Shown here: piece by piece, positions 19,161 through 61,502 of the stretch
Layout: each line of letters begins with the position of its first letter
Position numbering within the stretch: the stretch's first letter is position 1
Assembly (NCBI GenBank): GCA_019925095.2
Contig: CM034401.1
Location: 8,591,838 to 8,655,837 of the forward strand
From: Dendrolimus kikuchii
Taxonomy: Eukaryota > Arthropoda > Insecta > Lepidoptera > Lasiocampidae
Direction of reading: 5' to 3'
DNA length: 64,000 nucleotides
Translations under genes and position numbers: made by a program
The notes under the pieces: model-generated
What the model saw: only the letters and a program-made list of their open reading frames with translations
Told to the model about the DNA's origin: nothing
Databases searched by the model: none

Positions 19161-19405
19161 TTGCCAGGTGGTAGGGCATTTGCCCGACTGGATGGCTACC
19201 ACCCCTGGTCTAAAGCATGTCGCCATAACAATCTTGAGTTGTGTTCCGGCATTAGTGATCAGGTTCCAGTCTCCCTTAAGAGAGCAGCAGCGCATTTGTA
19301 GCACCTTTGGTGTTGCAAATGTCTATAGGCGATGGTAACCGCTTTCCATCAAGTGGGCCGTCTGCCTGTCTGCTGAGCTCCTGCAATAAAAAAATAAAAA
19401 AATAG
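19161..19405 (-). repeat. SINE-like repeat B, short form, A-tailed
   Basis: In this direction the unit begins ttgccaggtggtagggcat and ends gctcctgcaataaaaaaat, an A-rich tail, so the retrotransposed strand has its 3' end to the right here. I list strand minus relative to the copies at 32399 and 46146. The gccaggtggtagggcattt start resembles a tRNA A box, and aggttccagtctccc resembles a B box, but their spacing (near 95 bp) is too long for a tRNA. Other copies: 32399, 40730, 41405, 43971, 46146, 59377. Confidence 0.8.
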
Positions 19406-56200: not shown

Positions 56201-56566
56201 ATAACCCACAAAATCTATCAGATGACCTATAAAGAAAAGTCTATTAATACATAAATACATCAAAAGAAAGAAAATTAAAGTGTCTATCTGTGATTTCAAA
56301 ATAAATTAACAAATTTACCTGAAATCTAAAGATACAAAGCCTAATCATACATAAATGACTGTTTTTGGAGTTTTGGTCTATGTTGATGTCGGTCTGTTTG
56401 TTTATCTAAGCTTCAAAACGGCTCAACGGATTTTATTGAAAATTTTAACGATTAAAACTGAAATTTCTTATTAAAACGTGTAAAATAAAATGCCGCGCTT
56501 AAAACAGTTTAAACGTATTCTTTTGTCTGTACTAGTCGTGAAAACTTAAGAAAATGCTAATACATA
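56201..56566. other. Nothing recognised
   Basis: Resembles a decayed LINE tail (cttcaaaacggctcaacgga near 56411). No gene. Confidence 0.4.
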
Positions 56567-56596
56567 ATCGACGCCCCCGGGGAATAAAATCGTAAT
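56567..56596 (+). repeat. Terminal inverted repeat, left
   Basis: atcgacgcccccgggg then aataaaatcgtaat. Mismatches to the right TIR at positions 15 and 25. Confidence 0.92.
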
Positions 56597-57194
56597 AAAC
56601 AAAAGTAAATTTTACAGGACGAGCAAAAAACTGTTATTCTGTTTTAGCTCATAACGTAACCGGCCTATATTATCATATGATATACCATTTTATTCAACAT
56701 TTTTTTCTTAATAAGTGGCTATAGAATAAAATAAAATATAATGTATACTTTTGAAGTTATTACGAAAAATATATAATACTGATTTTATATTTAGGTGTAT
56801 CCTAAGTAACGGCATATAATCATTTTATTCTCGTAAAGTTGTAATATAATGAAAACCATAACCGTATATTACGATGTTTTTCTACAGTACTTTCATGAAT
56901 GAACTGTAATTGTAATAAACCAATACTATTTTGTTCTTGTAAAAGTTACCACTGTCTTTTTTCGTATAGCTATATAACAACTTTGTTTTTGTATAAATGC
57001 ATTCAACGTTAACATCGTAATATGCAGTAATGTTTATGAATTTTGATTATAAATTACTGTAACTGTTACTGTTATACCACTACTGGGTACTTGGTGGGTG
57101 CCTTTGTAAACTTTTCACATTATTTATTTTATAGAGTGACTCAGTCAGTACACATAGCGAATATAAATTTAAAAAAATTATAATAAACATAATC

Positions 57195-57200
57195 TTTATT
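57195..57200 (-). terminator. Polyadenylation signal of the transposase gene
   Basis: AATAAA on the minus strand, about 85 bp past the stop codon. Confidence 0.5.
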
Positions 57201-57282
57201 TAGGAAGATCACAATTGTTACAATAGGCATTAATCACTAGAATTTAGATTAGCATCAATCAGTCTTAGTTATAAAAAATCAA

Positions 57283-59227
57283 TCAGTCTGCTTCATTGCT
57301 CTCACTTTCAAAGTCATCCTCACCTAAAACGGCTTCAGAACTATTTGTACTTTTCAACGAATTGTAAAAACTGTGGTAATGGAGATGTATGGCGTTTATC
57401 CTACAAAGGCTCGATAGATCTTCGTGCAGAGCTTTTGAAATTGAAACTGGACCGTCATAGGCTGGCTGTAAGACCACATCAGCGATAGATGAAACTGCTG
57501 CGGTAGAGGCAGATTTTCGTTTTTTAATGTTTTTAGTTGATGTTAATCCTATATTCATTTCACTAAAGTCGTCATCATAATCATACATAAAGTAAACAGA
57601 TTGTGGGTTTGTGGGGGCCACTTTTATTTCTTTGATCTTTGACCAATATATTTCGTTACCTTGTGTATCATTTAACCAATTCTGTCCAGTAATCAATGAT
57701 TTTATGTCATAAAAATCAGTTTGTCTCATTTCCTTGACTTGGTATTTTTCACCGGTTTTTTTAGCATTCATAACTATTTCGTATAATTGATCAAGTGTAT
57801 AAATTTGTTTCTTTTTTATCGCTCGTTCTATGCATGCGTGCATAGAATCACCTTCATTTTGGCTATGGCCAGATTCAAGAAACGATGAATAATCTCTAGC
57901 TTGAACTTATTAGCAGCAAACAGATAAAGAGCAAACACGAATCTATTTTTAATCTGTCCTGTGCAACCATCAGAATAAAATGAAATTTTATTTATTCGTT
58001 TATGATATTGTTCTTCAATGAAATTATAAAGACAGCTACCTACCTCTGTTGATCCTCTTTTAGCAATATGCAAATGCCACATGTAACAGTATCCTTTCTT
58101 GCTTGAAGCATCGAAAACAGTGAAGTTATAAACGGGATACTTCCGTTTATAGTGAAATATCCCTACCTCTGACTGAGGTACGCCTAAAACCTTTTTTAAA
58201 TCAAAAATAGCTAGAGTGGAGTTTGAGTCAAGGTCTTTTCTTTTCTGAATTTTTGATTTCACGAATTCTTTCTTTATTGTATATATGTTTTGTGTATTTA
58301 TCTTTTAATGATTCCTTGTGCTCGTTTTCAGCTTGTTCATAAAGCGTACAAGTGCCACATAAATCTTTCTTAGGATGAAAAAAAGAATAAATAAACTTTG
58401 TATTAAAGATACTCTCATACTGTCTTTTGGTAGCGTCTGTCTGTTCTTTGACCCAATCTGTGTATAAACGGTACATTTTTGAAATATTTAAAGTTTCGCA
58501 TAAATACTTTCTTTTGGAAAATTTTCTGACTTAGTGTGCTTCTTTTGCTGGAAATAATTGAATGTGTGATATGATTATCTCTTCTGTTGGCACTGACATT
58601 TTGCGTGGTCGATTGTTATGTTTACCTCTACAGTCAGTTTTTTCAGAATCACTATTGTACTTTTCTATGGCAGTGTAAACCATTTGTTCGGATATTCGTA
58701 AAGAATTTAGGAAAAACACCTTACATATACGAACTTTATTACCATCTAAAGGCAAATAATAACTTATAGTTTGAGTACGGTTTTTATTTCGAGTAACTTG
58801 AAGTTTTTCACAGATTCTGACATAACGTATTTAGTTATAAATTGCCATTGCAACTTATGGTTATTAAATTTATAAAATGTTTCTAAAATGACATTCCTAC
58901 TATTATATGAAAACGTTTCACCACATTTCAATTTGCATTTACAAGAAGGTACTAACGTTATTTTGCAAGAAACTGTTATTTAGAATGACATCCAATATAA
59001 GCTTGGCCAGAGTTTTTTAAAGTTTTGGATTTATTGGCTATCCATTCTTTTTCATTTCGACATCGCTTACGGGTTAAGTTGTTTGTAGTGTTAAAGAGAG
59101 AGCTATCATCATCATTCGTAGGTTCCATTGAACTGCTTGGCAGTGATCCTGATACTGAAACTGTAGTGAGCGATTCTGATTCAGATGTACCTAATACTTG
59201 AAATGTCGCAGAATCTTCATTCTTCAC
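57283..59227 (-). pseudogene. DDE-like transposase of an uncharacterised insect family
   Basis: Read from 59227 down, successive frames give an ordered protein of about 640 residues. The order is: acidic/Ser-rich start (MKNEDSATFQVLG); a cysteine block (PSCKCKLKCGETFS); a segment PLDGNKVRICKVFFLNSLR; a K/R-rich linker RGKHNNRPRKMS; FHPKKDLCGTC with two more conserved cysteines; then an RNase H-like core. In that core, candidate acidic residues lie in AIFDLKKVL, FYSDGCTGQ and (after a shift) GHSQNEGDS. The C-terminus is acidic. Similar proteins, often annotated as uncharacterised, are dispersed in insect genomes. I see about four one-base losses (near 58985, 58780, 58240 and 57877) and one in-frame stop (58531-58533), so it is not functional. 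It lies inside TIRs. Catalytic assignments are inference. Confidence 0.82.
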
Positions 59228-59376
59228 TAAACCTTATTGCTTTGGGTTTCATCTCTATTTATTTGGGGCGTTAAAGTCTTATATATATTATATTAATAAT
59301 TAATACTGCCATTGTCTACATTGATTGCATAATGTACAAAATCTTCATTATTTTCAATAGGTTTTAGTGTTTCATC

Positions 59377-59595
59377 GTGGCAGACAGGCAGACGGCCCAC
59401 TTGATGGAAAGCGGTTACCATCGCCTATGGACATTTGCAACACCAAAGTTGCTACAAATGCGCTGCTGCTCTTTTAAGGGAGACTGGAACCTGGTGACTA
59501 ATGCCAGAACATAACTCAAGGTTGTTATGGCGACATACTTTAGACCAGGGGTGGTAGCCATCCAGTGGGGCAAATGCCCTACCACCTAGCAAACT
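59377..59595 (+). repeat. SINE-like repeat B, short form, nested in the transposon
   Basis: ggcagacaggcagacggccc to ccctaccacctagcaaac. Ends at the same point as the other short copies but lacks the T-rich (A-tail) side. Confidence 0.85.
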
Positions 59596-60080
59596 TATAA
59601 AAACTTGTCGAAATTCAAGCGCAAAAGACAATAATAACCAATACTGTATTAATTGAAGGAGAATTAAAAATAGTATCGCGTTAATACATGTTTTAAAATT
59701 CATAAAGAATATTGTAATATGTGTTTACGTGAAACAGTATCGAAAATTATGTCAATAATAAAGCAGTAATATACGTTTACCTTTCAAAACTTAGCGAACA
59801 AATTTAGGTAAAGCGTGTTATTGAAAAGAGTTATCAATTTATTTACGTGAATAAAATGGTGTAACGCCTTGCCGATTTATCGAGACATATGTTCGTTCCG
59901 TAATGAACGACTACGATGTTTTTATGGGTTAAATTTGTTACATGACTTCCGGAGAATAAAAATAAAAACTGTTATACTGGACGAGAATTTTACAAAAAAA
60001 ATAATTTAAAAAAATCAGTAGGTGTATATCGACCCACAGATGCCGAAAATACAAAAACATTAAAAAAGTGGTAATAGCAC

Positions 60081-60110
60081 ATTACCATTTTATTCTCCGG
60101 GGGCGTCGAT
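60081..60110 (-). repeat. Terminal inverted repeat, right
   Basis: attaccattttattctccg then ggggcgtcgat, reverse complement of the left TIR at 28 of 30 positions. Confidence 0.92.
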
Positions 60111-61502
60111 ATATCTTTCATTTCGATCTCTTGCAAGGTTCAACGGTCATGAACATAATATAATATGGATAGTAGAAACACAATTAAAATAATTCACATT
60201 CATTCAACTTTATAATATAATTTCCTTATTCATAATAGTTAAACCAGATTTATAGGTTTTACCTACCCGGTGTACCAGGCTCATTAAAAAATATATAAAA
60301 AGTGTTATTCGTGATACTGTTTAGAATGCGATTATAAAAAAATACAATCAATACTACAAAAAAAATGTATGTCTGTGAAAGGCGAAACATGTAACTGTCC
60401 ATATTTCAAACAAATAAATTATTTTGACTTTGAAAACATTTTTTTACGATTATAACGACCCTATATATCATATAAATATTATGAATAGAGAGCGGTACCA
60501 CCATATAAACCTCCTTTTGATCTATTCAAACTTTATTCTGACATATTTAAATTCCCTCTTTAAATTTGACGTTCTCCTTTCGCAGGCAATCAGTCATTGA
60601 TTTTCATGTCATCATCAATAAATTGCATTAAAATCGCTCCGCTTTGTAAATAAAATAACATAAAATATATCGCTCCCGCAATACACCACAAATGTTTATA
60701 ATTTATAAATAACCCTCTCCGCATCCCAGTAATAAAACTACAATTACTCCGTTCGCAATATCTTATAAATGTAAACATATTATAACACAAGTGAACTGAA
60801 GAGAAGTGAAAGTGAGCAGCTGTATTTCATGCCCATTAATCAGGTACGTGCGTGCTCAATCTCACATTCTCATCTAAATTGCCCCACACTTCTTTTTCTA
60901 CAAATTTGACATAGTCCATTTTTATCCTAAACCCATCGCCGCCGCAACAAAGAGGGTAAATGTATACATGCTAACATTTTCTTAATAAATCAATTAGAGG
61001 GTACCAAACACAACAGTGTAATGTCCTCTTACCAACCAAGTTGGCAAGAATGTCTGAAGGGGAGGTGTGGTCCGGTTAGCTATGGTTTTGTTTTCCAACT
61101 TCCATGTTGATTTATTAAGAACTTGACCTATATACTGGTAACACAGGGGAAGATATATTCGAAAAGATAAACTCCTACTGTTGGGAGGAAGTGAGTTTGA
61201 TTATTTGTTACTATACTGTCAAGCAGTTAAACGATTCTTCTAAAAACATAACAGGGATGTTCCTTAATATTTTAAGATGGATACATAATTAAATTAGCTC
61301 GAAAAAATGTTATCTTGCATTAAAATTATTTAATACAGTGTTGATGAAATTCGTTACAGGATTTTCTTAGAGACAGGTTTGGGGCAATTTTTGTATTGCT
61401 CAGCGGAAAATGTTGAAAACCTTAAGATAGAACTTAAAAACAATCTGAACAAGATCTGTTATGTGGTTTGTCAGTTAAGTACAGTTTATTTAATTAGTTA
61501 CT
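60111..61502. other. Nothing recognised
   Basis: AT-rich. No supported gene or repeat. Confidence 0.4.

Follow-up and report, generated by a model that had tools for sequence, protein, structure and literature searches.

The 64,000-nt sequence of Dendrolimus kikuchii analyzed here (GCA_019925095.2, CM034401.1:8,591,838-8,655,837, forward strand), referred to as the window, contains a DNA transposon of 3,540 bp at 56569-60108 that encloses a minus-strand pseudogene of the Pfam family DUF7869. The window copy is a defective, worn-out copy of a cut-and-paste transposon. It is very likely that DUF7869 is the transposase of this element, which most likely falls in the Sola2 group of the Sola superfamily. 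The analysis supports a firm link between DUF7869 and a mobile element, exact ends in four element families, and a proposal for the mechanism.

The longest inverted pair in the region lies at 56567-56596 and 60081-60110, identical at 28 of 30 positions, and a first-pass annotation had taken this pair as 30-bp terminal inverted repeats (TIRs). The repeats are present. However, comparison with other copies set the termini at CGACGCCCCC...GGGGGCGTCG, and because the flanks of those copies are the 4-mers outside these termini, the window element runs from 56569 to 60108, the outer AT on each side being target. The TIRs are thus 28 bp long and match at 26 of 28 positions. The left TIR, CGACGCCCCCGGGGAATAAAATCGTAAT, is at 56569-56596 on the plus strand, and the same terminus occurs at 13 other places in the genome; the right TIR, located by inverted-repeat search and copy comparison, is at 60081-60108 on the minus strand. 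The 30-bp form was ruled out, since its outermost two bases are target, as was a 2-bp AT target-site duplication (TSD), since other copies show 4 bp. The window copy itself has an imperfect TSD, TAAT on the left (56565-56568) compared to ATAT on the right (60109-60112, from copy comparison), which would be explained by an extra base inserted in the left flank.

When the left 61 bp was used as a query against the element's own 705-Mb genome, 14 places including the window were found, at 97 to 100% identity. The pattern CGACGCCCCCGNGNAATAA occurred 26 times in this genome, compared to 0 for a backwards control; 14 occurrences were of the window type (GGGG in 12 and GAGG in 2) and 12 had the sequence of a second family, A (GTGC). 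Sixteen places were recovered with the right end: the 13 known copies and the window itself, a new copy on C23, and a relative at 78% on C4. The copy counts from these end searches are lower bounds. Twelve of the 13 other fetched copies showed the right end too, and all 12 had identical 4-bp flanks (ATAT seven times; ACAT, TTAT, AATT, ATAC, and ATAA once each). The alignment of full copies that had been proposed as a check on TSD length therefore gave 4 bp, and the proposal that the TIRs tie an often unnamed protein to a mobile element was borne out by the 12 other copies that share both ends. Excluded from the counts were L013 and L034, whose retrieved sequence did not show a second full end, and L035, which has a single end. 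The last of these (C4:28869500-28878600) is an isolated sequence related at 78% to the right end of the window family, CGATGCCCCCCGAGAATAA; the sequence fetched around it showed neither a second end nor a match to any of seven DUF7869 proteins.

Searching this genome at the protein level yielded 85 DUF7869 matches, with open frames in some families. In three further families (A, C, and D), both ends were read, and TIRs and 4-bp AT-rich duplications were found. Stop-free protein matches were present in 8 of 10 copies (2/4, 2/2, and 4/4 for A, C, and D, respectively). Family A has four copies of 4.26 to 4.29 kb, two of which have open frames of 702 and 707 codons (507 from the first ATG); its TIR, CGACGCCCCCGTGCAATAAGTCGGTAAT, is the same as the window-family TIR at 22 of 28 positions, and its flanks match in all four copies (ATAT three times and ACAT). 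Family C, with two copies of 4.35 kb and an open frame of 670 codons (595 when counted from the first ATG), has a TIR starting CGACACCTGCTAGGAA... and matching flanks in both copies (ATTT and AATA). Family D elements are 4.39 kb, with 806 codons from ATG in D_C17 and 567 in D_C14, and their TIR starts CGCGGGCTTCAAGCCAGAGGGGCG...; the flanks match in two of three copies (ATAT in both, compared to TTAT/ATAT in the third), and the fourth copy, D_C11, was left out of the TSD count because its left end is cut. For the elements of the four families, the TIRs match at 25 to 28 of their first 28 positions. When the families were pooled, the 4-bp TSD matched in 20 of 22 two-ended copies. Fourteen of the 20 matching TSDs were AWWT (12 ATAT, AATT, and ATTT), a pattern that accounts for 5.5% of the window's own 4-mers; the remaining six (ACAT twice, TTAT, ATAC, ATAA, and AATA) make this a preference and not a strict rule.

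Another DUF7869 family, B (G000 C8, C6, C38, C26, C23, C32, and C22), is very young, the compared copies being 98.1 to 99.8% identical. Its frames have 725 to 727 codons, without stops in four of seven, and its ends form no clear TIR; a shared left end, CGCCTGTCCC, is found in three copies and lies further in elsewhere. Six short contigs (G000 C35, C39, C41, C42, C43, and C48) each gave a DUF7869 match of equal score with 606 codons open and no stop, perhaps representing one repeated or unplaced segment.

The transposase pseudogene of the window occupies 57301-59376 on the minus strand in several frames. Alignment to protein P0067 gave blocks at 59376-59263, 59245-58961, 58946-58782, 58830-58237, 58223-57879, and 57885-57301, the reading frame changing from one block to the next and one block containing a stop. 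The three motifs reported at first pass, CKCKLKCGE, FYSDGCTGQ, and GHSQNEGDS, were all located on this strand between the TIRs and belong, with others, to three parts of the protein. First, CKCKLKCGE (58917-58943) is a CxCxxxC motif and possible zinc site in the N-terminal domain, where C39, C41, C45, and C112 are conserved in 223/228, 226/230, 231/232, and 246/247 homologues, respectively. Second, an HHCC motif with the spacing H-X9-H-X63-C-X2-C lies ahead of the catalytic core (in homologues, H165, 243/260; H175, 262/262; C239, 269/270; C242, 269/271). Its two His are in HIQLFPAKEAH (58534-58566), with a stop immediately after, and its two Cys are in CGTC (58348-58359). Third, the candidate catalytic residues (P0003 numbering; counts in homologues) D292 (276/278), D369 (270/270), and D410 (266/266), and also E408 (264/266), correspond to the motifs IFDLKKVL (58185-58208; Asp at 58202-58200), FYSDGCTGQ (57954-57980; Asp at 57971-57969), and GHSQNEGDS (57844-57870; Glu at 57855-57853 and Asp at 57849-57847). 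Single-protein and profile searches gave no PDB match by sequence. By predicted structure, the protein matches transposases and integrases of the RNase H fold, the nearest being Mos1, Metnase, and retroviral integrases, and the predicted fold is that of an RNase H-type transposase with an integrase-like HHCC motif. In the structural list, piggyBac had one row, at rank 38, and the absence of other families from this list excludes nothing. The tentative DDE assignment of the annotation thus stands as regards the fold and the near-invariant carboxylates, but the third residue is more likely D (D410) than E.

A dispersed repeat of about 211 bp resembling a short interspersed nuclear element (SINE) sits inside the element where the coding region has its N-terminal end (59380-59590), directly adjoining the block that matches residues 140 to 188 of P0067. 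Of the 13 other window-family copies fetched, 12 carry it at that site. The repeat is abundant, with further copies in the window near 19373, 32420, 44215, and 46177 and others elsewhere in several fetched loci. At 1147-1070 of the window (minus strand), a stretch of 26 residues shares 73% identity with an N-terminal portion of P0095 (Dendrolimus) that lies beyond the DUF7869 region; this may be another repeat in that gene model.

Copies of the window family are 96.1 to 99.5% identical to the majority sequence (98.6% for the window copy), and among the genome matches listed, none was both full length and stop-free. One- and two-base insertions or deletions in the coding part are common to several copies, a list from which L011 was left out. 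L011 is an internally deleted form of 1,427 bp whose matching blocks are 98.5 to 100% identical. The four copies L012, L014, L015, and L017, each at a different site, have in common a deletion of 495 bp of the majority sequence (window-equivalent 57794-58291). Nothing is left inside this interval, so that all three catalytic motifs are gone, and each copy bears its own matching TSD. Broken copies therefore kept moving, with transposase supplied from elsewhere (in trans).

The transposase would begin with a Cys-rich domain, continue with an integrase-like HHCC domain, and have a catalytic core of RNase H fold with D292, D369, and D410. Judging from the TSDs and the fold, it would bind the TIRs, cut the element out, and join it to an AT-rich target with a 4-bp stagger, the repair of which would yield the 4-bp duplication. 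The window family would have broken before its last spread and then been carried in trans, and the related family A, with its TIR match at 22 of 28 positions, may have been the source.

The features described for Sola in the available portions of two papers were compared with these elements. Sola has a DDD transposase, a 4-bp TSD, sizes of mostly 2 to 9 kb, and TIRs of 11 to 1,124 bp (PMC10741241), and Sola2 has an AT-rich AWWT TSD, for instance ATAT, and an 888-aa transposase (PMC3627910). The 4-bp TSD is found in all four families here, the elements of 3.54, 4.26 to 4.29, 4.35, and 4.39 kb and their TIRs of 28 to 32 bp are within the ranges given, and AWWT is present as a preference. Some features differ from those described for Sola2. 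The TIRs are longer than the 12 to 21 bp given for amoebozoan Sola2 in those portions (PMC3627910 and PMC10741241), and 6 of the 20 TSDs depart from AWWT. One of the family A TSD matches sits in an AT repeat and carries little weight alone. The fold claim comes mainly from VIA-align, which re-aligned only the list from Foldseek, and Foldseek alone was weak. No sequence link to any named Sola2 transposase was made.

This last point favors the alternative that DUF7869 transposons are a superfamily of their own and that the 4-bp AT-rich TSD they share with Sola2 is convergent. DUF7869 is the sole Pfam label of the family and is absent from the literature searched (a search that says nothing on Repbase or other papers), and the TIR starts differ, with CGCGGGC in family D compared to CGAC in the window family, A, and C. 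Nevertheless, the TSD, transposase length, and DDD triad in the available text on Sola and Sola2 are a close match, and so common an animal family would hardly be absent from Repbase; we therefore consider a superfamily of its own unlikely. A separate animal-wide superfamily, distinct from Sola2 and concealed until now by the label of an unknown domain, with a three-part transposase (CxCxxxC..C, integrase-like HHCC, and an RNase H core with DDD/E) and ATAT-like 4-bp TSDs, seems improbable.

An integrase-derived, Ginger-like transposon, with HHCC, an integrase-fold core, and a 4-bp TSD, is a very doubtful reading. The HHCC motif does lie ahead of the core, retroviral integrases are among the best structural matches, and Ginger elements also make a 4-bp TSD. 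However, no integrase family was among the Pfam matches, including 23 families at E up to 0.1, and Mos1 and Metnase match structurally about as well. The HHCC spacing of retroviral integrases is far narrower than that of DUF7869. The TIRs here are also shorter than the 40 to 270 bp of Ginger given in the available part of PMC10741241.

It is even harder to sustain that DUF7869 is a captured passenger gene and that some other, unrelated transposase moves the element. In favor of this reading, the window family clearly went on to move in trans once its gene had broken. However, in the two copies examined from each of families A, C, and D, the DUF7869 frame is the longest, these families have different TIRs yet 4-bp AT-rich duplications throughout, and the fold and conserved carboxylates are transposase-like. 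That the TIR matches by chance or comes from an unrelated miniature inverted-repeat transposable element that happens to flank the gene, which the annotation had named as what would overturn it, has in its favor the imperfect TSD of the window copy and is refuted almost beyond doubt by the genome copies, with 26 pattern matches compared to 0 in the control, fourteen left ends of the window type, matching TSDs in 12/12 other copies, a gene-bearing interior in full-length copies, and related ends around family A's own gene.

Protein searches gave 59, 490, and 185 matches in overlapping sets, and the named ones among those listed are almost all "uncharacterized," "unnamed," or "hypothetical"; no name containing Sola was among the listed homologues. 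The annotation had described such proteins as often uncharacterized in insects, which is right as to naming but too narrow as to host, since relatives were found in cnidarians, molluscs, an echinoderm, and a tunicate. A profile search of viral_contigs and genome_contigs gave 8 and 10 pattern matches, respectively, with no relative confirmed. Four DUF7869-related proteins (P0173, P0213, P0177, and P0189) also carry PF02338 (OTU protease) or PF04843, perhaps as captured domains or faulty gene models. Several hundred animal proteins among these matches are very probably transposases, although most of those with a name are labeled "uncharacterized" or "DUF7869 domain-containing"; moth, beetle, mollusc, and cnidarian gene sets thus include transposon genes with a neutral label. 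Activity can be tested directly, as families A, C, and D offer defined ends, TSDs, and native open-frame copies.

Compared with other known systems, the DUF7869 elements differ from Tc1/mariner (Mos1 and Metnase) in their 4-bp duplications, several without a terminal TA, in place of a TA target, and in a longer protein with no sequence match to any solved structure. They differ from retroviral integrases and Ginger in a third carboxylate that is probably Asp. The 4-bp target duplications of piggyBac and Kolobok are TTAA; the length is the same here, but 0 of the 20 matching TSDs are TTAA. For KDZ (Zisupton, Dileera, and Kyakuja), no family of that transposase domain was among the Pfam matches. 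The elements resemble Sola2, as far as the available text describes it, in a 4-bp AT-rich TSD, in most cases AWWT and frequently ATAT, in a probable DDD-like triad, and in having a single large transposase, a short TIR, and a full length of 3.5 to 4.4 kb. By TSD, triad, and size, with no named Sola2 transposase in the comparison, the element is most likely Sola2-like.
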